A stretch of 36,138 nucleotides of DNA from an uncultured Eubacterium sp. (GTDB lineage: Bacteria; Bacillota; Clostridia; Lachnospirales; Lachnospiraceae): positions 1-36,138 of the forward strand of contig CANDMI010000037.1 of assembly GCA_947385775.1 (NCBI GenBank). The letters run 5' to 3'. Positions 1 through 36,138 of this stretch are shown here, one piece after another; the first letter of the stretch is position 1, and every line of letters begins with the position of its first letter. Position numbers and translations under genes: made by a program. Below the pieces are notes generated by a model, which saw only the letters and a list, made by a program, of their open reading frames with translations, did not search any database and was not told where the DNA came from.

Positions 1-53
1 AGAGCACTTGGCTACGGACCAAGGTGTCGGGGGTTCGAATCCTCTCACGCACG
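1..53 (+). tRNA. tRNA-Arg (anticodon ACG), 3' part
   Basis: The window opens inside a tRNA gene. The anticodon arm reads CTTGG-CTACGGA-CCAAG, a perfect 5-bp stem with a 7-base loop in which ACG occupies the anticodon, so it decodes CGN arginine codons. A T-loop TTCGAAT follows at 34-40, then the acceptor strand CACGCAC with discriminator G at 53. CCA is not encoded. The 5' half lies outside the window. The 3' end is the integration site of the downstream element, and insertion rebuilds an identical 3' end, so the tRNA should still work. Confidence 0.93.
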
Positions 54-55
54 TT
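33..55 (+). repeat. attL core of the integrated element
   Basis: This 23-bp stretch, the T-arm and acceptor 3' strand of tRNA-Arg plus TT, is repeated without mismatch at 17927-17949. A tyrosine integrase gene begins about 300 bp inside. Direct repeats of a tRNA 3' end flanking an integrase element are the standard mark of site-specific integration, so this is the attL crossover region. Confidence 0.92.
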
Positions 56-282: not shown

Positions 283-362
283 TCAGCGTTATTGGCAAAT
301 TATTCTGCCTGTCAGTATAAATTGCTGTGGGATATATAGTTTCATCAGAAAGGAAAGTGGAT

Positions 363-1556
363 ATGGCTGTAACATGGACGAAAATAGAACCTAATATTTA
401 TCAATGTATCGAAAATCCCAAAAAGTTTAGAGTTGATCTGTATTATGGAAGGGATGAACGCGGCAGAATTATAAAAAGCAAAAAAGTAGTAGAAGGGAAT
501 CTGACAGAAGCACGCAAGCTGTTAAGAAATCACGAAAATCAAAGGGATAAGAAAATACTGCAAAAACCTACAAAAGTGACATTAAAGGAATTATTTGATA
601 ATTGGAATTCTAATATAGGGGATGTGCAGAATGTAGAGACTACACAGACTTCTACAAGGAACCTCCAACGGCATATGCTGGAATACTTTGGCGATATCCG
701 GGTGGATAAATTAAATACGTCTATGATACGTAAATATATGGCTTATTTAAGGACGGATAAGGGGCTGAGTGCAAAAACAGTAAATAAGCACCGTACCCAT
801 CTGCACACATTATTTGATTATATGGTTTCGGAAGAAGAAACCTACGGCATTTATAAAAATCCTGTAGATGCGATAAAACCTTATCCTGTGGAAGAATTTA
901 ACCATGAAATATATTCGCCGGAAGAAGCAAAAGAGTTGCTGATTGCATTAAGGGCAAGCGGGCGATGGGCACTGGAAATAGCGGTCAATCTGGCTTTTTG
1001 GTGCGGATGCAGGAGGGAAGAAACCTGTGCTTTGGAATGGCCGGATGTGGATATGGAAAGCAGGGAAATAAAAATCTGCCAGGTAAGGACTACAGCAAAA
1101 GGGACGATTGTTGAACGAAAATCTACCAAAAATAAAGAAATCAGAACAGTTGGTATACCTGACTGGCTCTATGACTGTCTTATACAGGTGAAACATCGTC
1201 AGAAAGAAATGCAGAAGTTATTAAAGGGTGAATATTATTCAGAAAAAAATTTTGTATTCTGCCATGATAATGGAAAACCGTGGAATCCCAATTCATTAAG
1301 CAATGAGTATAAAAGTTTTTTAGAAAAGAATGGATTCAAACATATCCGGTATCATGACCTTCGGCATACAAATCTTAGTATGTTAATGACAAAAATGAGT
1401 GCGGTAGACGTTGCAAAAATAGGCGGACATAAACAAGTGTCTACAACTACGGATATTTATGGACACTCGTTTGATGATTCCATAGAAAGGGGCGTTGAGA
1501 CAATGAATGAAATTATGGAGGATATATTAAAAGATAAAATGGATGCAGGAAGATGA
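363..1556 (+). CDS. int: Tyrosine recombinase / integrase
   Basis: This enzyme would catalyse integration and, with an excisionase, excision at the tRNA-Arg site. The 397-residue product has a basic N-terminal arm-binding region (about 1-60), a SAM-like core-binding domain (about 65-160, with the stretch TVNKHRTHLHTLFDYM) and a C-terminal catalytic domain. All catalytic residues are visible: R217 in GCRREE, H331 and R334 in HDLRH, H356 in GGHKQ and the nucleophile Y366 in DIYGH. The length fits Tn916/phage-type integrases. The Met at 363 is chosen because a purine-rich ribosome site (AAAGGAAA) lies 7 bases upstream; the in-frame ATG at 327 has none. The gene sits directly inside attL and reads into the element. 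Confidence 0.95.
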   Translation: MAVTWTKIEPNIYQCIENPKKFRVDLYYGRDERGRIIKSKKVVEGNLTEARKLLRNHENQRDKKILQKPTKVTLKELFDNWNSNIGDVQNVETTQTSTRNLQRHMLEYFGDIRVDKLNTSMIRKYMAYLRTDKGLSAKTVNKHRTHLHTLFDYMVSEEETYGIYKNPVDAIKPYPVEEFNHEIYSPEEAKELLIALRASGRWALEIAVNLAFWCGCRREETCALEWPDVDMESREIKICQVRTTAKGTIVERKSTKNKEIRTVGIPDWLYDCLIQVKHRQKEMQKLLKGEYYSEKNFVFCHDNGKPWNPNSLSNEYKSFLEKNGFKHIRYHDLRHTNLSMLMTKMSAVDVAKIGGHKQVSTTTDIYGHSFDDSIERGVETMNEIMEDILKDKMDAGR

Positions 1557-2469: not shown

Positions 2470-3435
2470 TTGGAACATGAAGAAACAGCAATCGCATATC
2501 AGAATAAGGATATTGTGAGCAAAGTGTTAGCAGAAAATTTTAAAGGGAAATCATTCCGGGTTTATGGGCTGGACCTGCCAGAGATCAGAAGGGCGCTCCC
2601 AACAAATATCCCGGCGGTAAAGGCGAATGAGCTGCGTCTGGATAATCTGTTTGAGCTTGTTGATGGTACAGTAGCGGTTGTGGACTATGAAAGCGTATAC
2701 CGGGAATCGGATAAGGAAAAATATCTTAACTACTTGACCGGGATAGTAAACCGTTACCGGAAAGAAAAGAAAAAATGCCCTAAATGCCGTATAATCGTAA
2801 TTTATACAGGGGATATCAGAAGGGACGAAACATCCGCTAAATATGATATAGGGGCCCTGCAGATGCGTATAGAACCGGCATTCCTTTCAGAGCTGGACGG
2901 GGATGGAATATACAGCCGCCTGAAAGAAAAGGTGGAAACGGGGGAAATGCTGACGGACGAAGAACTGATGCAGTTTATTATTCTTCCGCTGTCTTATCCG
3001 GAAAAAGAAAAGAAACAGGAAAAAGTCCGTGATACTGTTTTGCTGGCGGTACGGATCAGCGATCGGAACCAGCAGTTTTTTGCACTGGCAGGAATACTGG
3101 CATTTACAGATAAAATTATTGACCGGGAGACTGCAAATAAAATAAGGAGAGTGATTGAGATGACACAGGTAGCACAGATCTTTGAAGAAGAAAAGCAGCA
3201 GGCGATACTACAGGTAACACAGATCTTTGAAGAAGAAAAGCAGCAGGCGATACTACAGGCAACAAAGATTTTTGAAGAAGAAAAGCAGCAGGCATTAAAA
3301 GAAGAAAGGTTAAATACGGCAAAGCAGGTTGTGATCAATATGATAAAAAAGGATTATTCCTCAAAAGAGATTGCATCCCTGGTATTGGACTATTCACAGG
3401 ATGATGTGGATAAGCTGAGGAAAGAACTAGAATAA
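2470..3435 (+). CDS. Rpn/PD-(D/E)XK nuclease-family protein
   Basis: The 321-residue product resembles the Rpn / PD-(D/E)XK transposase-like family, whose characterised members promote RecA-independent recombination or cleave DNA. The likely nuclease core is LDNLFELVDGTVAVVDYES (about residues 56-74), with Asp and Asp/Glu at the expected strand positions, then a strand CRIIVIYTGD. The C-terminal part is a charged coiled coil made of three copies of a 15-residue unit (TQIFEEEKQQAILQV-type), followed by the typical family tail KEIASLVLDYSQDDVDKL. The start is TTG at 2470, supported by GGGAGGGA just upstream; the nearby ATG at 2463 is followed by TGA after five codons. A second family member lies at 16858-17727. 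It could act in element recombination or in defence; the substrate is unknown. Confidence 0.8.
   Translation: MEHEETAIAYQNKDIVSKVLAENFKGKSFRVYGLDLPEIRRALPTNIPAVKANELRLDNLFELVDGTVAVVDYESVYRESDKEKYLNYLTGIVNRYRKEKKKCPKCRIIVIYTGDIRRDETSAKYDIGALQMRIEPAFLSELDGDGIYSRLKEKVETGEMLTDEELMQFIILPLSYPEKEKKQEKVRDTVLLAVRISDRNQQFFALAGILAFTDKIIDRETANKIRRVIEMTQVAQIFEEEKQQAILQVTQIFEEEKQQAILQATKIFEEEKQQALKEERLNTAKQVVINMIKKDYSSKEIASLVLDYSQDDVDKLRKELE
3169..3297 (+). repeat. 45-bp in-frame tandem repeat (about 2.9 units)
   Basis: Units start at 3169, 3214 and 3259, each 45 bp and nearly identical. They encode a 15-residue coiled-coil segment inside the Rpn-like protein. The near identity at DNA level points to recent expansion and possible copy-number change by slippage. 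Confidence 0.95.
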
Positions 3436-3488
3436 TGGAACTATCTAAGGGATAGCAGGGTTAAAAATCAGACTCAGGAAAGCTGGTA

Positions 3489-3575: not shown

Positions 3576-3950
3576 TCATGTGGAAAGATGGAAGGACTGG
3601 ATTACGAGGTTTATAAATTCTTCCATAATTTTCTGCTGTTTGGGGGAAAGCTTCTGTATACGTGAAAATGCGGATAAGGCATTTTCCGGGCCAGCGCTGT
3701 CATCACGGCCCAGCAGGAGAAAATCTGTTGAAATGGACAGGACATCGCACAGCCGGATAATGGTAGATACAGACATTCCGGTAACGCCCCTTTCCGCATC
3801 AGATAAAAACTGCGTGGAAACGCTGATGCGTTCCGCAAGCTGTTCCTGTGTATAGCCGGATAGTTCCCTTGCCCTGCGGCATCTTTCGCCAATCTGTATA
3901 TTTAATTCTTTTGGCTGTCGGCGTTTTACACCGTTTCTTTGATTATTCAT
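3576..3950 (-). CDS. XRE-family transcriptional regulator
   Basis: This 124-residue protein has a Cro/CI-type helix-turn-helix (about residues 18-74: IGERCRRARELSGYTQEQLA then VSTQFLSDAERGVTGMSV). A C-terminal extension with FSRIQKLSPKQQKIMEEFINLVI resembles clostridial helix-turn-helix repressors. It is the likely regulator of the element, divergent from the rightward genes. The Met at 3950 is chosen because AAGGTGG lies about 7 bases upstream; the 35-residue upward extension has no ribosome site. A palindrome at 3967-3987 near its own transcription start may be its operator. Confidence 0.88.
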   Translation of the reverse strand: MNNQRNGVKRRQPKELNIQIGERCRRARELSGYTQEQLAERISVSTQFLSDAERGVTGMSVSTIIRLCDVLSISTDFLLLGRDDSAGPENALSAFSRIQKLSPKQQKIMEEFINLVIQSFHLST

Positions 3951-3966
3951 GCAAATACCACCTTTT

Positions 3967-3987
3967 ACCATTATTATATTTAATGGT
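3967..3987. promoter_or_regulatory. Candidate operator of the XRE regulator
   Basis: ACCATTA (3967-3973) and TAATGGT (3981-3987) form a perfect 7-bp inverted repeat with a 7-bp spacer. The repeat lies between the predicted -10 box and the start codon of the XRE gene, where a dimeric repressor could block its own transcription. Confidence 0.5.
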
Positions 3988-3997
3988 TGCGCACTTA

Positions 3998-4026
3998 TAC
4001 ATAATGTGATATTATTAGATTGACAA
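3998..4026 (-). promoter_or_regulatory. Predicted promoter of the XRE regulator gene
   Basis: On the minus strand, TTGTCA (4026-4021) and TATGTA (4003-3998) are 17 bp apart and about 48 bp upstream of the chosen start codon. The -10 box is imperfect, so this is a moderate prediction. Confidence 0.45.
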
Positions 4027-4243
4027 CAAGCAATAGCATTAGATAAAAGGTTCAAAAGATTTGGCTCTTAATATTTGCGGTATATAAGATAATTGATAGA
4101 GTGATTTTACTTGGATTTTTAAAAATAGAAATGAATGAAAAAATTCAGAAAGTTCTTTGGAAACATACAGATTGCATAAAGGGATATAAGTCAGTGTATT
4201 CTATTAATCGATATATTGATGGCAGCGTTAGGGAGATAGTTAT

Positions 4244-4575: not shown

Positions 4576-4857
4576 ATGAATAAAGAAAAATCTGTAAGTA
4601 CAAAGGCAGAATTGCAGTTAGCTGCCAGAGAAAAATATGAGGTAATTCATTTAAAAGGAGCGCTTGCTGCTGAATTGGCGAATGAGGCAGAAAAGCATCG
4701 GAAAGGCAATATTGCGGCTAATGTTGGACTTGTTGCTGGTTTATTTGCTTGGCCGTTGTTGATCGCAGGTGTTGTAGGGAAGGTTGTAACGGGTGATTTG
4801 AAATGTTATAAATATATTGATGATGAAAATGATTATAGGTTGGTGCTAAAACAATAA
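4576..4857 (+). CDS. Small membrane protein, paralogue 2
   Basis: A 93-residue protein follows its paralogue after 11 bp with its own site AGGAGG. It has an Ala/Glu-rich soluble N-terminus (about 1-48), a hydrophobic segment NVGLVAGLFAWPLLIAGVVG (about 53-72) and a short polar tail. Shared positions with the preceding gene suggest tandem duplication followed by divergence. The function is unknown. Confidence 0.65.
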   Translation: MNKEKSVSTKAELQLAAREKYEVIHLKGALAAELANEAEKHRKGNIAANVGLVAGLFAWPLLIAGVVGKVVTGDLKCYKYIDDENDYRLVLKQ

Positions 4858-5049
4858 ATTCTGGAAGTGATCTTGAATTATGATGGTACGGAAAGCCGAA
4901 TTTGTCAAAAAAAACTGACTGATGATTACGTAATAATTTGTATCCTATAAACAATCAATCCTTGATTTCGATTGTATAATTCTTGCTGCTGTGTAGATTG
5001 AGGACTTTCATTTGTTATAAGTGTGTGCCAATTGGATAAACATACGAAA

Positions 5050-5089
5050 AGAATCTGCGGAAATTCTAATTTATCCGCAGATTCTTTTT
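5050..5089. terminator. Bidirectional terminator
   Basis: AGAATCTGCGGA (5050-5061) and TCCGCAGATTCT (5074-5085) form a perfect 12-bp stem. T-runs are present for the rightward reading and short ones for the leftward reading. It separates the small membrane-protein pair from the convergent excisionase-like gene. Confidence 0.85.
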
Positions 5090-5271
5090 CAGTTTGTATG
5101 ATTTTTCGCATAATCAATAAGCGACTTCCGGCTGATGCGCCAGATCTTCCCTCCAACCCTCGAAGCTTTAATTTCACCTTCATTTAAAAGCCGGTACATT
5201 AAGTTTTTCCCGATTCCAAGCGCAATCCTTGCTTCTGTGGCAGTCATATAATCTGAATAGTCTTTGAACAT
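5089..5271 (-). CDS. Excisionase-like helix-turn-helix protein
   Basis: The 60-residue product is a complete small MerR-like winged helix-turn-helix of the excisionase (Xis / HTH_17) type: MTATEARIALGIGKNLMYRL, then a wing region SRVGGKIWRISRKSLIDY. Such proteins bend DNA at att sites and direct the integrase towards excision; some act only as regulators. A strong AAGGAGGA ribosome site precedes the ATG. It is leftward, opposite to the integrase, and its upstream region contains the structured 5361-5490 segment. Confidence 0.85.
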   Translation of the reverse strand: MFKDYSDYMTATEARIALGIGKNLMYRLLNEGEIKASRVGGKIWRISRKSLIDYAKNHTN

Positions 5272-5360
5272 TCTGTATTCCTCCTTCTACTCCCCGTATG
5301 GGTTATCTTATCACTTATTGTGTTGTTTAAGCAGATATATCAATATATTATTTCTGCATA

Positions 5361-5490
5361 AGGGACGTGTTTTTTAAACCTCTTGCTGTCCGGTGCCTAG
5401 CTGGACAGCTTATACTTGGGATAACCAGATCTGCACCATGCGTGTAAGAGGTATAGGGGGACCGGAGCGGTCGGAAAACACGTCCTTGAA
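5361..5490. ncRNA. Candidate structured RNA or ssDNA element with pseudoknot
   Basis: Four nested or serial helices can be drawn. P1 pairs 5363-5373 with 5475-5485 (11 bp). P2 pairs 5378-5384 with 5446-5452 (7 bp). P3 pairs 5385-5391 with 5403-5409 (7 bp). P4 is GACCG-GAG-CGGTC at 5460-5472. In addition GGTGC in the P3 loop (5392-5396) can pair with GCACC at 5433-5437, giving a pseudoknot inside P2. There is no ORF here. It lies between the leftward excisionase gene and a rightward operon with its own ribosome site at 5511. I do not recognise a known RNA family. Either strand could carry the function, and a single-strand replication or transfer origin is an alternative. Confidence 0.55.
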
Positions 5491-5517
5491 AAATAATGTT
5501 TTATTTTAGGAAAGGAG

Positions 5518-5643
5518 ATGAAAAAAGGCGCTATGAAACAGATTTTTTACAAAGTGGTGACAGCTGCAAAATGTGCGTTGAATGCTGTTTTATCACTGGC
5601 TTTACTGTTAAATCTGAGGAAAGGACGGGGAATGGCCCAGTAG
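5518..5643 (+). CDS. Tiny hydrophobic cationic ORF
   Basis: This ORF encodes 41 residues (MKKGAMKQIFYKVVTAAKCA at the start), with a hydrophobic middle CALNAVLSLALLLNL and a basic end. AAAGGAG directly abuts the first ATG; the second ATG at 5533 would give 36 residues and lies 15 bases from that site, so the start is uncertain. It could be a small membrane peptide. The next ORF starts one base after its stop, which suggests translational coupling and supports a real gene. Confidence 0.4.
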   Translation: MKKGAMKQIFYKVVTAAKCALNAVLSLALLLNLRKGRGMAQ

Positions 5644-5644
5644 G

Positions 5645-5815
5645 ATGAATGATTTTGGTTTTAACCATGATGACGAAATAAGCGGTAACGACCCATGCGG
5701 GGAAAATAAGGGAACAGATGGGGAACATACAGCGCTTGTCCATGTAATCAGCCTGCTCAAAGCCCTGGTTGGGATTCTGGATATTATAAGTGAACATCTG
5801 GGAAAGTACGGATAG
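5645..5815 (+). CDS. Small acidic ORF coupled to the preceding one
   Basis: This ORF encodes 56 residues: an acidic, polar N-terminal half (DDEISGNDPCGENKGTDGEH) and an amphipathic helix HVISLLKALVGILDIISEHL at the C-terminus. The ATG comes one base after the previous TAG. No family is recognised. It lies in the leader of the DUF932 operon and may be a small regulator or structural helper; this is not testable from sequence alone. Confidence 0.4.
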   Translation: MNDFGFNHDDEISGNDPCGENKGTDGEHTALVHVISLLKALVGILDIISEHLGKYG

Positions 5816-5826
5816 AAGCAGGAAAC

Positions 5827-5898
5827 ATGCAGAGGCAGAAGCAGTCTTGCAGGCGTTTGGCCAGTAAGAAGGAGACAGGCTGGACAGGTTTCAGGTAA
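5827..5898 (+). CDS. Very short basic ORF (23 residues)
   Basis: The ORF starts 11 bases after the previous stop with AGGAAAC upstream and encodes a basic, Gln/Lys-rich peptide (MQRQKQSCRRLASKKETGWT). It may be a leader peptide before the DUF932 gene or a chance ORF. Confidence is low. Confidence 0.2.
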   Translation: MQRQKQSCRRLASKKETGWTGFR

Positions 5899-5945
5899 AA
5901 AGAAAAACAGTGCAAAATATATAGGAAAAGAAAGGGGAATAAAAA

Positions 5946-6869
5946 ATGGCGGCAAATGTGGAGACAATGTTTTCTGTAAGGGAAAAACCCTGGCACGGGC
6001 TTGGGACAGTAGTAGCAGAAGCGCCGGCTTCGAAAGATGCTTTAAGGATCGCGGGGCTTGACTGGACCGTAAGCCAGATGCCGGTTTGTACGGAATACGG
6101 GATGATTGAAGGTTATAAGGCAAATGTCAGGAGTACGGATAACAAGGTGCTTGGCGTAGTCAGCGACCGTTATAAGATTATCCAGAATGTAGACGCATTC
6201 AGCTTTACGGATGCGCTGCTTGGCGAAGGGGTGCGCTATGAAACGGCTGGTTCCCTGCAGAACGGCAGGAAGGTATGGATGCTTGCAAGGCTCCCAAAGG
6301 AATATATCATTGCAGGGGAACGGATTACCCCATACCTGGTGTTCAGCAATACCCATGACGGTTCCGGAGCAGTCCGGGTCGCAGTTACCCCGGTCAGAGT
6401 TGTATGTAACAATACGCTGAACCTTGCGCTTTCTACGGCTAAAAGAAGTTTTGGCATGGTACATACCGGGGACATAAAAGGGAAAGTGCAGGAAGCAAGG
6501 AAGACGCTTTTCATGGCGGATTCTTATATGGAAGGGCTTGGGCGCGAATTTGAAAGGCTGCGGAAACAGAAGGTTACAGACGCCCAGGTGATGGAATATA
6601 TAAAGATGCTCCTTCCGCTTGAAAAGGATGCAAGCCCTGTAACTGTGCGCAATGTCTCAAAACTGAGGGATGATATGGCAGCGCGTTATTTTGACGCGCC
6701 TGATCTGCAGGATGTTGGGAAGAACGCCTACCGCTTTGTAAATGCGGCCTCAGATTTTGCGACACATGCAAAACCTGCAAGGAGGACCAGAAACTACCAG
6801 GAAAACTTGTTCATGCGCACCTATGAAGGGAATACGCTGATCGACAGGGCTTACCAGCTCGTGGCCTAG
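5946..6869 (+). CDS. DUF932 / phage-plasmid-like protein (TIGR03299 type)
   Basis: The 307-residue product matches the DUF932 family found widely in phages, plasmids and integrative elements. Recognisable parts are the N-terminal REKPWHGLGTVV, the central SDRYKIIQN and FSFTDALL, then GRKVWMLARLP, and TPVRVVCNNTLNLAL near residue 150. The molecular role is not established; genes of this family usually sit beside recombination and single-strand-annealing genes, as here. GAAAGGGG upstream of the ATG supports the start. Length is normal for the family and the frame is intact. Confidence 0.88.
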   Translation: MAANVETMFSVREKPWHGLGTVVAEAPASKDALRIAGLDWTVSQMPVCTEYGMIEGYKANVRSTDNKVLGVVSDRYKIIQNVDAFSFTDALLGEGVRYETAGSLQNGRKVWMLARLPKEYIIAGERITPYLVFSNTHDGSGAVRVAVTPVRVVCNNTLNLALSTAKRSFGMVHTGDIKGKVQEARKTLFMADSYMEGLGREFERLRKQKVTDAQVMEYIKMLLPLEKDASPVTVRNVSKLRDDMAARYFDAPDLQDVGKNAYRFVNAASDFATHAKPARRTRNYQENLFMRTYEGNTLIDRAYQLVA

Positions 6870-13785: not shown

Positions 13786-14361
13786 ATGTTCGAAAGTACG
13801 AAAAATTCAAATGGCATCAGTGTACATCAATTTGAGGTTGGAGATGGGTTGGAGGAAAAAATTGACCGATTTGAAGATAATATTAAAAAATGTATGCATA
13901 AAGTTTACAGTATGCGATTTTCTGAAGGCAGTCCTGAATATGCTGCTCTGATTTCGCCGAGTGGATTAAATCAAATTACAGAATATCGTTTTTATTCCAG
14001 TGCGTTATCGAAAAAGATATTCAGTGGGGAGGCAAAAGAAATCGCTACAGTAGAAGAACTCAGAGAATTTATTCAGCGAGATGATTTGCTGGAAATTATT
14101 TTTAGCTTATCAAAAAAACACAATGGTATCTATTGTAAAAAGTTACGGCTGACACATTTCTTCGAAGCTACCGATGGAGGTGTTGCAATCATTTTATTTA
14201 AAATTTTGACCAACGTGAAATGGAACAGCACAGCGTTTTATCTGGTTTCATACGATTCCGTGAATGGGATATCCTTTATGCGTCTTGACGAGACAGCATA
14301 TAAAATTTTCAAATGGTTTGTGGATTATTGTTTAAAAGAATCTGAGGAAGAATATGAATAA
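13786..14361 (+). CDS. Uncharacterised protein coupled to the helicase gene
   Basis: The 191-residue protein starts after a strong AGGAGG site and its stop overlaps the helicase start by 8 bp, so the two are translationally coupled and likely work together. The sequence has an acidic helical N-terminus (about 15-40) and a mixed alpha/beta remainder with the hydrophobic strand GGVAIILFKILTNV and the acidic end ESEEEYE. No catalytic, zinc or DNA-binding motif is obvious. It may be a replication accessory protein such as a loader or origin-binding factor; this rests only on context. Confidence 0.7.
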   Translation: MFESTKNSNGISVHQFEVGDGLEEKIDRFEDNIKKCMHKVYSMRFSEGSPEYAALISPSGLNQITEYRFYSSALSKKIFSGEAKEIATVEELREFIQRDDLLEIIFSLSKKHNGIYCKKLRLTHFFEATDGGVAIILFKILTNVKWNSTAFYLVSYDSVNGISFMRLDETAYKIFKWFVDYCLKESEEEYE

Positions 14362-16015
14362 AAACAAGAATGATTTAAGCGAATGGATTACGGAAAGGGG
14401 CTGTTTATCTGGCACTGATTTCAGGAAAAAGGATTCGTTTCTTGGTATGAAGGTTGAAGGTATGTGCATTTCGGAGGAAAAATTTGAACCACAGCCTGAT
14501 GAATTCTTAATGCAGGGATGCCAGGGGCAGGTTGTAAATTGCGCTATCGCAGATGACGAATTTTTGGATTATGAAATTATTGGCCATGCAAAAGAACACA
14601 ATGCGGAAGAATTGAAAAATGGCATTGAAGTTCAGATATTTGCAGAAAAGCCGCCGGACGTTCCACGTCAGCATATTCCAGATTTAAATTGGGAACAGTT
14701 TGCACGAGGGCCGAGTCGTGAAAAGAATATCGATTTTTTGCTTCGATGTATCAAGCAACGTGTTTCGTTGGTTTGTGCTGGTTCTAAGCGTTTGTTTGTA
14801 TTTAACGGAAGATATTATGAAAATATCAGCGAGTTAAAAAAGGCGGCATCCTATTACAAAAAGGTACTCGGTGAACAAACGAACCGACTTTTTCGGGATT
14901 ACTCTGAGATTCATAACCAATTGCTGAGTGATCCTGATATTAGCATCGACAGTATTGATCATCTGCCTATAAACCGGGACGTGATTGTTTTCCAGAACGG
15001 CACGTATGATGTAAAAATGGAAAAATTTTACAAAAACCAGTTTTGGCCAGATGATTATGCTTTCTCAATTTTAGCGACAGACTACGATGAAACAGATGAA
15101 TCAGGAAGGGATATTATAAATTCTTTTTTAAATACGTTTTGCGACCACAATGAGGAGCGTATAAGGCTTTTTTGTGAAATTCTAGGGTTTTGCATTTCGG
15201 GCTATGAGAATAAAAAATCATTTTTTTATTTTCTTGGTAAACCAGATGCAGGGAAAAGTACTGTGTGCAGGTTCATAGAACAGGTTATTGGGGAGAATTT
15301 GTACATGGCCTGTTCCATTCATGAACTTAATGGCAAATATGCGACTGGGGAGCTTTTTGGAATAAAAGTATGCGCAGACGAAGATGTTGCAGTGGACAGG
15401 GCTTTGAAAACAGATGATATTTCTCTGATCAAAAAAATTTCATCCTCTGATAAAATACGGACACGACAGATTTATCAGTCAGCGGTGCAAATGCGTCCGG
15501 ATTGCAAATTAGTATGGGCTGGGAATGGGATGGTTAAGTTCGACACAAAGGAAGATTTACAACCGCTTATCAACCGTATGGTCGTTTTCCCCTTGGATGT
15601 TTCAATTCCAAAGGAAGAACGAGATACAGAGATATTATCAAAGCTTATTATTGGACGTAATTATATGCTTACGCTTGCACTGAAAGCATTGCACAATTTG
15701 GTGCAAAACAGATTCATTTTTTCAGAGGTGGTTGATGCGGAAAAATATTTTAATTCATCAATTTATTTATATGGCGTTGAAGATTTTGTCCAAGAAAATT
15801 GTGTAATCGATGCGGATGCGGTTGCGTATACACAGGTTTTATATGGACAGTATCAGGATTTCTGCAAGGAAAACCCTGAATATAAGCGGCTTTCCAAAAA
15901 CCAGTTCATCCCATATCTTAGAGAAAAATATGGTGTGGAGAGATACAGCGATGGAAGCAGGAGAGGGATTCGGGGCATTCGGTTAAAAGATGGTCTGGCA
16001 GAAATTAATGATTGA
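14354..16015 (+). CDS. D5/P4-type superfamily 3 replication helicase
   Basis: This 553-residue protein resembles the helicase half of phage P4/poxvirus D5-type primase-helicases, which unwind DNA at an element's origin. A D5_N-like region (about 180-275) precedes the ATPase. Walker A is LGKPDAGKST (about 294-303), the Walker B-like strand KVCADED is near 338-344, and the sensor strand KLVWAGNG is near 385-392. A winged-helix-like end (RLSKNQFIPYLREKYGVERY) follows. The N-terminal 170 residues show no TOPRIM, AEP or zinc-finger primase motif, so it may be helicase only. It is coupled to the upstream gene and followed by repeats that could be its origin. Confidence 0.88.
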   Translation: MNKNKNDLSEWITERGCLSGTDFRKKDSFLGMKVEGMCISEEKFEPQPDEFLMQGCQGQVVNCAIADDEFLDYEIIGHAKEHNAEELKNGIEVQIFAEKPPDVPRQHIPDLNWEQFARGPSREKNIDFLLRCIKQRVSLVCAGSKRLFVFNGRYYENISELKKAASYYKKVLGEQTNRLFRDYSEIHNQLLSDPDISIDSIDHLPINRDVIVFQNGTYDVKMEKFYKNQFWPDDYAFSILATDYDETDESGRDIINSFLNTFCDHNEERIRLFCEILGFCISGYENKKSFFYFLGKPDAGKSTVCRFIEQVIGENLYMACSIHELNGKYATGELFGIKVCADEDVAVDRALKTDDISLIKKISSSDKIRTRQIYQSAVQMRPDCKLVWAGNGMVKFDTKEDLQPLINRMVVFPLDVSIPKEERDTEILSKLIIGRNYMLTLALKALHNLVQNRFIFSEVVDAEKYFNSSIYLYGVEDFVQENCVIDADAVAYTQVLYGQYQDFCKENPEYKRLSKNQFIPYLREKYGVERYSDGSRRGIRGIRLKDGLAEIND

Positions 16016-16303: not shown

Positions 16304-16426
16304 GCATTTTTGGTCTGTATATATAATGAAAAATATAATTTTCAAGACGTATATTATTTGTATATGGGTCCACATAAACAGGTTTGATAAGTAAAAAAAG
16401 GATTATGGATGAGGAGGATACAGATT

Positions 16427-16627
16427 ATGAATGAAGAATTACGGAACATGACGGTATTAACAGCAGGTGATATTCAGAAACTGCTTCGCATTGGAAAAAA
16501 TAAGACGTATGATTTTTTAAACAGTAAGAATTGTCCGGTACCGGTAATTACCATTGACCATCAAAAGAGGGTTCCGGCAAGGCAGTTTTTTGAATGGTTG
16601 GACAATCTAAAGGTAGCGGCAATGTAA
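16427..16627 (+). CDS. AlpA/excisionase-like helix-turn-helix protein
   Basis: A 66-residue protein of the small MerR-like winged-helix type: TVLTAGDIQKLLRIGKNKTY (recognition region), DFLNSKNCPVPVI, then a wing KRVPARQFFEWL. Such proteins regulate integrase or act as excisionase in satellites and islands. The Met at 16427 is chosen because GAGGAGG lies 9 bases upstream; the ATG at 16409 would lie before that site. It is the second such protein in the element; the other is at 5089-5271. A terminator follows directly. Confidence 0.82.
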   Translation: MNEELRNMTVLTAGDIQKLLRIGKNKTYDFLNSKNCPVPVITIDHQKRVPARQFFEWLDNLKVAAM

Positions 16628-16664: not shown

Positions 16665-16857
16665 TATTGTTAACCGCAAGAGATAGAGAGATACTGTTTT
16701 AGTCCTAAGTAACAGATCTTAACGGTAAATATCAAATCAGAGTATTTCATAAAGATATGAATTTTACTAGGTAGAAGGATAAAAAGATATGGAAAGGAGA
16801 ACTTGTTTTTATACCAGAAATATCATATACTTAGGTAACAGCAAAGGAGATAAAACA

Positions 16858-17727
16858 ATGGGGAATGAGGATATGCAGTTTGATGAAAATGGAAATATCA
16901 AACGAGCTGCAAAAGACAGCATATTTACGCATTTATTTCAGGATAAGGAATATTTATTACAGCTTTATCAGGCGCTGCATCCAGAAGATACAGAAGCGGA
17001 AGAAAAAGATCTGACGATTATAACGTTGAAGAACATTGTTTCCGGCGGTATTTATAACGATTTGGGATTTATGTTAAAAGAGAAATTGATTTTCTTGATA
17101 GAAGCGCAGTCAACCTGGACTGTGAATATCCTGGTAAGGGTTTTAATGTATCTAGCAAAATCATATCAGGATTATATTATAAGAAAAGGACAAAATATAT
17201 ATGGGAGTAAAAGGGTAAAACTGCCCAAAGCGGAATTGTACGTAATATATACTGGGGATCGGAAAACAAGGCCGGATGTCCTGTCATTTGCACAGGAGTT
17301 TTTTCCAGGGCAGGATAGTTTTCTGGATATTAAAGTGAAAATGCTCTATGGGGATGGAACCGGGGATATTATCAGCCAGTACGTGGCATTTACAAAAGCA
17401 TTTGATGAGCAGATAAAAAAATACGGGTATACAGAACAGGCCGTGCGGGAAACCATCCGCATCTGTAAAGATATGGATGTTTTGAAAAAATATTTGGAAA
17501 GCAGGGAAAGCGAGGTAGTGGATCTTATGATTACATTGTTTAGTGATGAAGAAATTTGGAATATGTGTATGAAAAGCGAAAAAAGGGAAGCGGCAATAAA
17601 AACTACGATCGAAGATGGAAAAGACTATGGAATTTCAAGAGAAAAAATATTTATGAAATTACAGCAAAAATATGATTTGACCGAAGAAGAAGCAAGAGAA
17701 ATGTTAGAATTATACGGAAGGAAATAG
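16858..17727 (+). CDS. Rpn-family PD-(D/E)XK nuclease / transposase-like protein
   Basis: This 289-residue protein is a typical Rpn-family member: AAKDSIFTHLFQDKEYLLQL at the start, the nuclease core NDLGFMLKEKLIFLIEAQST (Asp, Glu-x-Gln; about 62-82), the following VRVLMYLAKSYQDYI, and the strand AELYVIYTGD. Family members cut DNA and promote recombination; some act in defence. The short C-terminal tail KIFMKLQQKYDLTEEEAREM is also usual. The Met at 16858 has AAAGGAG 8 bases upstream, so the 23-residue extension to 16789 is not used. It is the last gene before attR, mirroring the relative at 2470 near attL. Confidence 0.88.
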   Translation: MGNEDMQFDENGNIKRAAKDSIFTHLFQDKEYLLQLYQALHPEDTEAEEKDLTIITLKNIVSGGIYNDLGFMLKEKLIFLIEAQSTWTVNILVRVLMYLAKSYQDYIIRKGQNIYGSKRVKLPKAELYVIYTGDRKTRPDVLSFAQEFFPGQDSFLDIKVKMLYGDGTGDIISQYVAFTKAFDEQIKKYGYTEQAVRETIRICKDMDVLKKYLESRESEVVDLMITLFSDEEIWNMCMKSEKREAAIKTTIEDGKDYGISREKIFMKLQQKYDLTEEEAREMLELYGRK

Positions 17728-17766
17728 AAAAAGAATTGTTATAAGGACTCTGGATAAACGTTTATA

Positions 17767-17790
17767 AAAGCACACAAAAAAGCACACAAA
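17767..17790 (+). repeat. Candidate integrase arm-binding repeats, right end
   Basis: AAAAGCACAC followed by AAAAAAGCACACAAA repeats the left-end motif (111-134) with only one base missing there. It is about 137 bp inside attR, compared with 56 bp inside attL on the left. Confidence 0.5.
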
Positions 17791-17926: not shown

Positions 17927-17949
17927 GTTCGAATCCTCTCACGCACGTT
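17927..17949 (+). repeat. attR core of the integrated element
   Basis: Exact 23-bp copy of 33-55. The sequence to its left does not complete a tRNA, so this is the displaced original end of tRNA-Arg. The element between the two cores is 17,894 bp per unit (33-17926). Confidence 0.92.
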
Positions 17950-17990: not shown

Positions 17991-18073
17991 ATGCGCAGGC
18001 CCGCATATGGAAGTTTGCCGCTAAAGCATGCGGGCCGCGCGGCGAGCAGGAAAGATGCTCTTCCCTACTCGAT
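17991..18073 (+). repeat. Structured intergenic repeat, copy 1
   Basis: The copy starts directly at the end of the terminator T-run with ATGCGCAGGCCCGCATATGG. It can form hairpin 1 (GCCCGCAT 17999-18006 with ATGCGGGC 18028-18035), then CGCGCGGCGAG, then a weaker hairpin 2 ending in CTACTCGATT. The same arrangement occurs at 35905-35992 and 36084-36138. Stem bases differ between copies in a compensated way, so the structure seems to be conserved. Confidence 0.8.
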
Positions 18074-18138
18074 TTGAAACAACGGCATTCTTTTTCCATT
18101 TCTTCTTATGCTCAGCAGGAAACAAAGTTTTGAGCAGA

Positions 18139-35905: not shown

Positions 35906-35992
35906 ATGCGCAGACCCGCATATGGAAGATTGCAGCTAACGCAGCTGCGGGTCGCGCGGCGAGTAGAGAAGAAAAACCTTCTCTACTCGATT
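35905..35992 (+). repeat. Structured intergenic repeat, copy 2
   Basis: Same plan as copy 1: ATGCGCAGACCCGCATATGG, hairpin 1 (ACCCGCA 35913-35919 with TGCGGGT 35946-35952), CGCGCGGCGAG, then a strong hairpin 2 (GAGTAGAGAAG with CTTCTCTACTC) and CGATT. Hairpin 1 closes with A-T here and G-C in copy 1, a compensated difference. Confidence 0.88.
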
Positions 35993-36000
35993 GTACGCGT

Positions 36001-36083
36001 GCGCCCAGATGAAATAGTCAGAAAAAGCTGACGGTCGCCCGGCGCGCGAGTAGGGGAAGAAAGAGCTTCCCCTACTCGATTAA
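36001..36083 (+). repeat. Variant structured repeat, copy 3
   Basis: The first half differs (small hairpin GTCAG-AAAAAG-CTGAC at about 36018-36033), but the GCGCGCGAG link and hairpin 2 are shared. Hairpin 2 here is GAGTAGGGGAAG with CTTCCCCTACTC, again followed by CGATT. Its middle pairs are G-C where copy 2 has A-T, another compensated change. Confidence 0.8.
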
Positions 36084-36138
36084 GCAGACCCGCATATGGA
36101 AGATTGCAGCTAACGCAGCTGCGGGTCGCGCGGCGAGT
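36084..36138 (+). repeat. Structured intergenic repeat, copy 4 (cut by window end)
   Basis: From 36084 the sequence repeats copy 2 from GCAGACCCGCATATGG through GCGCGGCGAGT without a visible mismatch, then the window ends inside hairpin 2. The repeats thus form a tandem array that continues outside. Confidence 0.88.

Follow-up and report, generated by a model that had tools for sequence, protein, structure and literature searches.

A strongly folding segment upstream of a putative early operon in an integrated element of an uncultured Eubacterium sp.

Described leader RNAs and the locus

The ompA mRNA possesses a stabilizing stem-loop at its 5′ terminus, and the C4 antisense RNA is a known type of leader RNA. 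In the review PMC3997798, 5′ secondary structure is said to stabilize mRNA in E. coli, and the RppH of Bacillus is described as preferring single-stranded 5′ ends and needing at least 2 unpaired nucleotides; titles cited in the same article refer to a 5′ stem-loop with stabilizing effect in the aprE leader of B. subtilis and, likewise, to papA. According to PMC4825925, the CI RNA of phage P4 arises by processing of an untranslated transcript and prevents the replication genes from being expressed; IsrK of Gifsy-1, a further leader RNA of this kind, is covered there as well.

The segment analyzed herein spans positions 5361–5490 of the window (the whole 36,138-nt stretch of contig CANDMI010000037.1 under study). 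Like the stabilizing stem-loops of ompA, papA, and aprE, it would place a predicted hairpin directly at the 5′ terminus of a transcript and leave the ribosome-binding site (RBS) mostly open; unlike them, it belongs to a leader that is long and branched and for which the transcript, its start, and its effect are predictions. Like the P4 CI and C4-type RNAs, it would be a structured leader that separates the promoter from the early operon in a satellite or prophage, and, as in phage P4, a P4-type primase is encoded in the same element (Table 1).

This element is integrated, 17.9 kb long, and bounded by 23-bp direct repeats. The tRNA match at its left boundary covers positions 1–53 and is cut by the start of the window, and ARAGORN reported no complete tRNA. 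A 21-bp direct repeat (AAAAGCACACAAAAAAGCACA), found just inside both ends of the element (111–131 and 17766–17786), may represent integrase arm-binding sites. Besides the genes listed in Table 1, family matches identified a RecE-like exonuclease and a Rad52/Erf-like annealing protein between the 23-bp repeats. No relaxase or rolling-circle initiator was recognized among the element open reading frames (ORFs) scanned (ORFs that lack a family match or lay outside the scan could hide one), and nothing of a virion was recognized in them, the exceptions being a weak secondary match to PHROGs within the exonuclease and a holin match at 4576–4857 that stays below threshold. Because neither a relaxase nor a rolling-circle initiator and next to no virion genes were recognized, the element is probably satellite-like.

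The preliminary description, made from the sequence alone, placed the segment in a gene-free interval flanked by an excisionase-like gene and a recombination operon, and both points hold: the family matches of the neighboring ORFs agree with this arrangement, and the segment overlaps no ORF of at least 60 aa, the first small conserved ORF beginning 43 bases downstream. This ORF, p1, and the following p2 are located between the divergent excisionase gene and the DUF932 gene and have no Pfam or PHROGs match. ORFs similar to p1 occupy the same place in loci L039, L042, L043, L044, L046, L101, and L119 (8 loci including the window) and encode hydrophobic peptides often ending in LSL; a profile of 7 peptides (from the window and 6 of these loci, L039 being left out), compared with 2996 short ORFs upstream of DUF932 genes, recovered L039, its own members, and 2 insignificant matches (E 0.42 and 0.44). 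The p2 proteins, marked by HVISLLKAL, share 38% to 91% identity with the window copy. Upstream of the segment, a promoter-like motif (TTGTTT and TATTAT separated by 17 nt) is aligned directly before the leaders of the window, L039, L043, L044, L046, and L119, with the variants CTGTTT in L046 and an 18-nt spacer in L043. Its agreement with the −35 consensus is poor, and a consensus promoter scan did not report it. Of the 78 loci with at least 150 bases of DNA upstream of DUF932, 7 had a looser form in the 900 bases before that gene, 4 of them from this clade; L119 lay outside this set, and L046 was missed by the pattern.

Table 1. Coordinates of the segment, its stems, and other features of the element (window positions).
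Feature	Position	Strand	Remark
attL-like 23-bp repeat, tRNA 3′ end	33–55	+	exact direct repeat of 17927–17949
Tyrosine integrase	327–1556		
Cro/CI-type HTH gene (HTH_3)	3576–4055	−	
Excisionase-like gene (xis), divergent from leader	5089–5271	−	HTH_17, E 6.7e-11; TIGR01764 excise, E 3.3e-08
Promoter-like motif TTGTTT-17-TATTAT	5323–5351	+	conserved in 6-row alignment
Outer stem, 5′ arm	5361–5375	+	11 Watson–Crick pairs (5363–5373), 15 with G-U
Second stem, 5′ arm	5378–5384	+	
Hairpin	5385–5409	+	7 Watson–Crick pairs, 10 with G-U
Proposed pseudoknot arm GGTGC (partner 5433–5437), unsupported	5392–5396	+	competes with hairpin; AGTGC in L039
Second stem, 3′ arm	5446–5452	+	
GACCG-GAG-CGGTC hairpin	5460–5472	+	unchanged in L039
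Outer stem, 3′ arm	5473–5487	+	
RBS region of p1	5509–5520	+	outside main structure
Small hydrophobic ORF p1, 36 aa	5533–5643	+	similar ORF at same place in 7 further loci
Small ORF p2, 56 aa	5645–5815	+	aligned in 5 loci including window
DUF932/TIGR03299 gene	5946–6869	+	family matches
P4-family primase	14354–16015		TIGR01613
attR-like 23-bp repeat	17927–17949	+	exact direct repeat of 33–55

Predicted fold of the segment

All 5 complementary segments named in the preliminary description are present as exact matches at the positions given there. In the outer stem, GGACGTGTTTT pairs with AAAACACGTCC (5475–5485), and G-U pairs extend it at both ends. The second stem joins ACCTCTT to AAGAGGT over 7 bp, and the adjacent hairpin joins GCTGTCC (5385–5391) to GGACAGC (5403–5409), lengthened by G-U pairs to 5385–5394 with 5400–5409 in the minimum-energy fold. 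A separate hairpin is formed by GACCG (5460–5464) and CGGTC (5468–5472), and the proposed pseudoknot would pair GGTGC with GCACC.

On the plus strand, region 5340–5510 has a predicted energy of −59.5 kcal/mol (z −4.24) and on the minus strand one of −47.6 kcal/mol (z −4.14), in both cases with 0 of 200 dinucleotide shuffles folding as well. In a look-elsewhere scan, 130-nt windows of both strands were each compared with 12 shuffles and ordered by how far their energy fell below the shuffle mean; the segment ranked 6th (plus strand) and 14th (minus strand) of 1110 windows, 2 of which had been placed deliberately on it. The 5 windows with better ranks comprise 1 at 3456 and 4 that coincide with or adjoin copies of a dispersed palindromic repeat (35956 and 17951, both strands). 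Judging from the shuffles and the scan ranks, the nested stems exceed what chance would produce for this sequence, as had been proposed. The same does not extend to the pseudoknot pairing, because a 5-nt match easily arises by chance, and part of GGTGC already belongs to the hairpin stem in the minimum-energy fold, with which the pairing competes.

Downstream of the stems, the predicted unpaired probability is 0.66–1.0 over GGAAAGGAGA of the RBS region (0.94–1.0 for GGAAAG and 0.66–0.71 for GAGA), 0.15–0.18 for the final TG, and 0.39–0.77 at the p1 start codon. The folding model predicts that the RBS of p1 is not sequestered by the leader structure.

Relatives of the leader

In a protein search with DUF932, genome contigs supplied 79 loci and viral contigs another 30; some of these loci hold little DNA upstream of the gene. 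When region 4860–5945 was compared by blastn with 117 loci, similarity extended over the leader in L039 alone (besides L001, the window itself); in L043, L044, and L046 it fell at the excisionase end, and the other matches were short. Judged by coordinates and score, G399 and L039 represent one and the same contig region. Loci L042, L043, L044, L046, L101, and L119 have the divergent excisionase and p1 in common, and their leader sequences differ. Covariance model R1 recovered the window and L039 only among 82 sources (next best match E 3.6) and, with stricter filters, the source genome and one genome of the same genus among 195 searched. A DNA search of 397 family genomes returned the window itself and 7 stretches of 22–36 bases (E 6.7e-4 or weaker), which we treated as chance matches; phages and plasmids gave no match to the region at the DNA level, and a protein search with the excisionase found none in phages, plasmids, or viral contigs. 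One viral-contig match with an excisionase alignment (L122) was rejected, the surroundings of the gene, as read, being unlike the leader region. Rfam, in line with the earlier failure to recognize a published family, matched only the tRNA fragment in the whole window at the gathering threshold, C4 not being matched, and gave 5 matches in 4860–5945 at E ≤ 10, all below the gathering score and none overlapping 5361–5490. A narrow literature search, which is no proof of unpublished status, returned no published description of the leader.

L039 is thus the only relative that carries the leader sequence, at 94% identity. The 2 copies differ by 9 leader substitutions (6.8%), compared with 2.3% in 5272–5358, 3.0% in DUF932, 4.1% in p2, 5.4% in p1, 6.6% in the excisionase gene, and 9.3% in the interval between p2 and DUF932. 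Of the 45 pairs of the window fold, 39 are unchanged in L039, 1 is kept by a one-sided change, and 5 are broken; the compensatory changes by which the preliminary description proposed to recognize a new structured RNA amount to 0, and uncompensated pair changes, which it had named as evidence to the contrary, are what this sole homologue displays. The pseudoknot fares no better: with one arm changed to AGTGC and GCACC unchanged, 4 of its 5 pairs are left. The L039 region folds with a z of −1.26 (21 of 200 shuffles as good), and 93% of 2000 random sets of same-type substitutions leave a plus-strand fold at least as good as that of L039, a comparison that starts from the copy selected for its strong fold, is biased against that fold, and does not imitate the one-base insertion of L039. 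If anything, then, the observed substitutions damage the fold more than random ones would. On the minus strand, the energy is almost unchanged (−44.0 versus −42.7), and 79% of the 2000 random sets give a fold at least as good as that of L039, which means that so slight a shift does not point to constraint; a minus-strand RNA, in which several of the changes become G-U pairs, was set aside because random changes do as well. Comparison with relatives argues against a conserved RNA and lends no support to a new RNA family or to the pseudoknot. Overall, the preliminary interpretation is partly supported.

Folding of the other leaders is uneven. From near the predicted start to the RBS, z is −4.87 in the window, −4.77 in L044, and −3.06 in L043, against −1.69 in L119, −1.31 in L039, and +1.08 in L046. 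Over the first 60 nt, the values are −2.78 (window), −5.50 (L044), −3.08 (L043), −2.50 (L119), −0.69 (L039), and −0.37 (L046), and for segments delimited by eye, −6.21 (L044), −4.54 (L043), −3.20 (L101), −1.54 (L119), −1.05 (L046), and −0.78 (L042). At the leader position, L043 has a terminator-like hairpin, a 10-bp stem that runs out into 6 consecutive T, 3 of them paired. L044, L046, and L119 have in common a single 11-bp hairpin with a 7-nt ARAUYYG loop (31 of 33 cells paired), in which 3 pairs are changed on both sides; the set comprises 3 sequences only, and 32 of 500 shuffles are as good. The motif ARATYYGCA, present in the leaders of the window, L039, L044, L046, and L119, was not used as evidence, the window having 6 other plus-strand sites.

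Covariance model R2, which represents the promoter and hairpin of L044, L046, and L119, produced 20 matches at E ≤ 5 in the 82 sources, the 3 model sequences included, with L042 at E 0.015, L043 at E 0.022, L039 at E 0.11 (in an alignment that skips the hairpin), and the window at E 0.12; weak matches upstream of DUF932 also occurred, e.g., in L069, L071, and L104 (E 0.6–1.4). The source genome had no R2 match at E ≤ 0.01, and R2 does not recognize the window leader as a member of the L044/L046/L119 hairpin. Among the 397 family genomes, R2 reached E ≤ 0.01 in 8, including G195, from which L119 derives; the other 7, which have no relative of the excisionase, p1, p2, or DUF932 in the 3-kb stretch, were judged unrelated, their matches being mostly terminator-like hairpins. 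A hairpin may recur at the leader position in several, not all, relatives while its sequence turns over, and the branched fold of the window is not the form conserved among them. The window leader is 164 nt long versus 106–108 nt in L043, L044, L046, and L119. This difference leaves room for a single insertion; insertion of a mobile hairpin is less likely, with one copy in the source genome and no such copy seen elsewhere.

Possible roles of the leader

The complementary segments are real, and they most likely make up the folded start of an mRNA from a small mobile element in a gut bacterium; a new RNA family is unsupported. More specifically, we tentatively favor, at somewhat short of even confidence, a role as the 5′ untranslated leader of the p1–p2–DUF932–recombinase operon that protects the mRNA 5′ end in cis. 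The leader would be carried by this early operon of the integrative, satellite-like element, and transcription would begin approximately 8 bases after TATTAT, near 5359, as predicted from the motif. Folding of the RNA into a closed, branched stem (5361–5487) would set in close to the 5′ terminus, the outer stem closing once its 3′ arm is transcribed, with the RBS staying mostly open. The paired 5′ end would slow pyrophosphate removal and 5′-end-dependent decay of the operon mRNA, and the presence of a hairpin would matter, not its sequence. This role is supported by the conserved motif directly upstream in the 6 aligned loci, by a predicted structure that sets in at the predicted start and in which most of the RBS stays free, by the leader z values of the window, L044, and L043 together with the two-sided pair changes of the L044/L046/L119 hairpin, and by the precedent of stabilizing 5′ structures in other mRNAs. 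Against it stand the poor −35 match, the blindness of R2 to the window, the weak or absent excess folding of the L039, L046, L119, and L042 leaders, and the disruptive nature of the differences between the window and L039. A start exactly at 5359 would provide 2 unpaired 5′ nucleotides, the bare minimum quoted for Bacillus RppH.

A rather unlikely alternative is that the leader is transcribed and has no selected function, its fold being a chance quasi-palindrome that was noticed because the window holds the more perfect of 2 copies. The sole sequence homologue, in which 5 of the 6 changed pairs are broken and folding is near that of shuffles, fits this explanation, as do a leader substitution density within the range of its neighbors, from the promoter region to the p2–DUF932 interval, and several related leaders without excess folding. 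It accounts less readily for a window fold that no shuffle reached and that ranks so high in the scan, for the strong hairpins in the L043 and L044 leaders, and for the weak covariation in the related L044/L046/L119 hairpin. The segment shows how complementarity in a single sequence can mislead, with z below −4 and yet nothing in its only relative that points to constraint. Should the leader prove important, these loci, with their common promoter-like motif, divergent excisionase, and unrecognized small ORFs, would offer a small clade of integrative elements for studying the rapid replacement of leader hairpins.

Transcription attenuation, whereby leader hairpins would end operon transcription early unless relieved by a factor of the element or host, is unlikely. 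The L043 hairpin resembles intrinsic terminator and attenuator leaders at this very position, the terminator scan labels 5385–5409 of the window terminator-like, and the Cro/CI-type HTH gene suggests a lysogeny-like control region, but the window stems lack a proper T run: the tail TTATACTTGG following 5385–5409 is a poor one, none lies directly after the outer stem, and the scan yielded this 1 weak site versus 0.8 expected by chance.

It is improbable that an immunity RNA of the P4 CI or C4 kind is processed from the leader and pairs in trans with other leader copies, stopping the operon. The analogous position and the P4-type primase would suit such an RNA; however, sequence conservation does not reach beyond one relative, neither C4 nor any other Rfam family matches, and, unlike in P4 CI and C4, no antisense target segments beyond the stems are common to the window and L039, the extra downstream complementary segments differing between them. 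It would likewise be a long shot to regard the leader as a fast-evolving CI/C4-like RNA for immunity or copy control in an undescribed clade of satellite-like elements of Lachnospiraceae-type bacteria; specificity would then have to diverge between elements, so each would carry its own folded leader, branched in the window, a single ARAUYYG-loop hairpin in L044, L046, and L119, and terminator-like in L043.

Least probable is a DNA-level site, be it a transfer origin, a protein-binding palindrome, or a single-strand or replication origin (the former being the main alternative in the preliminary description), as the inverted repeats do fold on both strands with nearly constant minus-strand energy in L039, but random substitutions preserve that energy equally well, no rolling-circle initiator or relaxase was recognized in the scanned ORFs, and the primase present, of P4 type, is encoded approximately 9 kb from the segment.

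Several further features were observed in the window. A second, weaker excisionase-like ORF lies near the right end of the element (16409–16627; HTH_17, E 0.001, below the curated cut-off). Weak similarity to DUF2887 and a PD-(D/E)XK nuclease-transposase family marks the ORFs at 2470–3435 and 16789–17727, which may encode Rpn/PDDEXK-type proteins. The dispersed palindromic repeat, approximately 85–100 bases long with a GCGCGGCGAGTAG-like motif, occurs at 17993–18074, 35908–36010, and 36084–36138, one copy lying just outside attR; with 33 matches at E ≤ 1e-5 in the source genome, the query included, it looks like a REP/BIME-type repeat.
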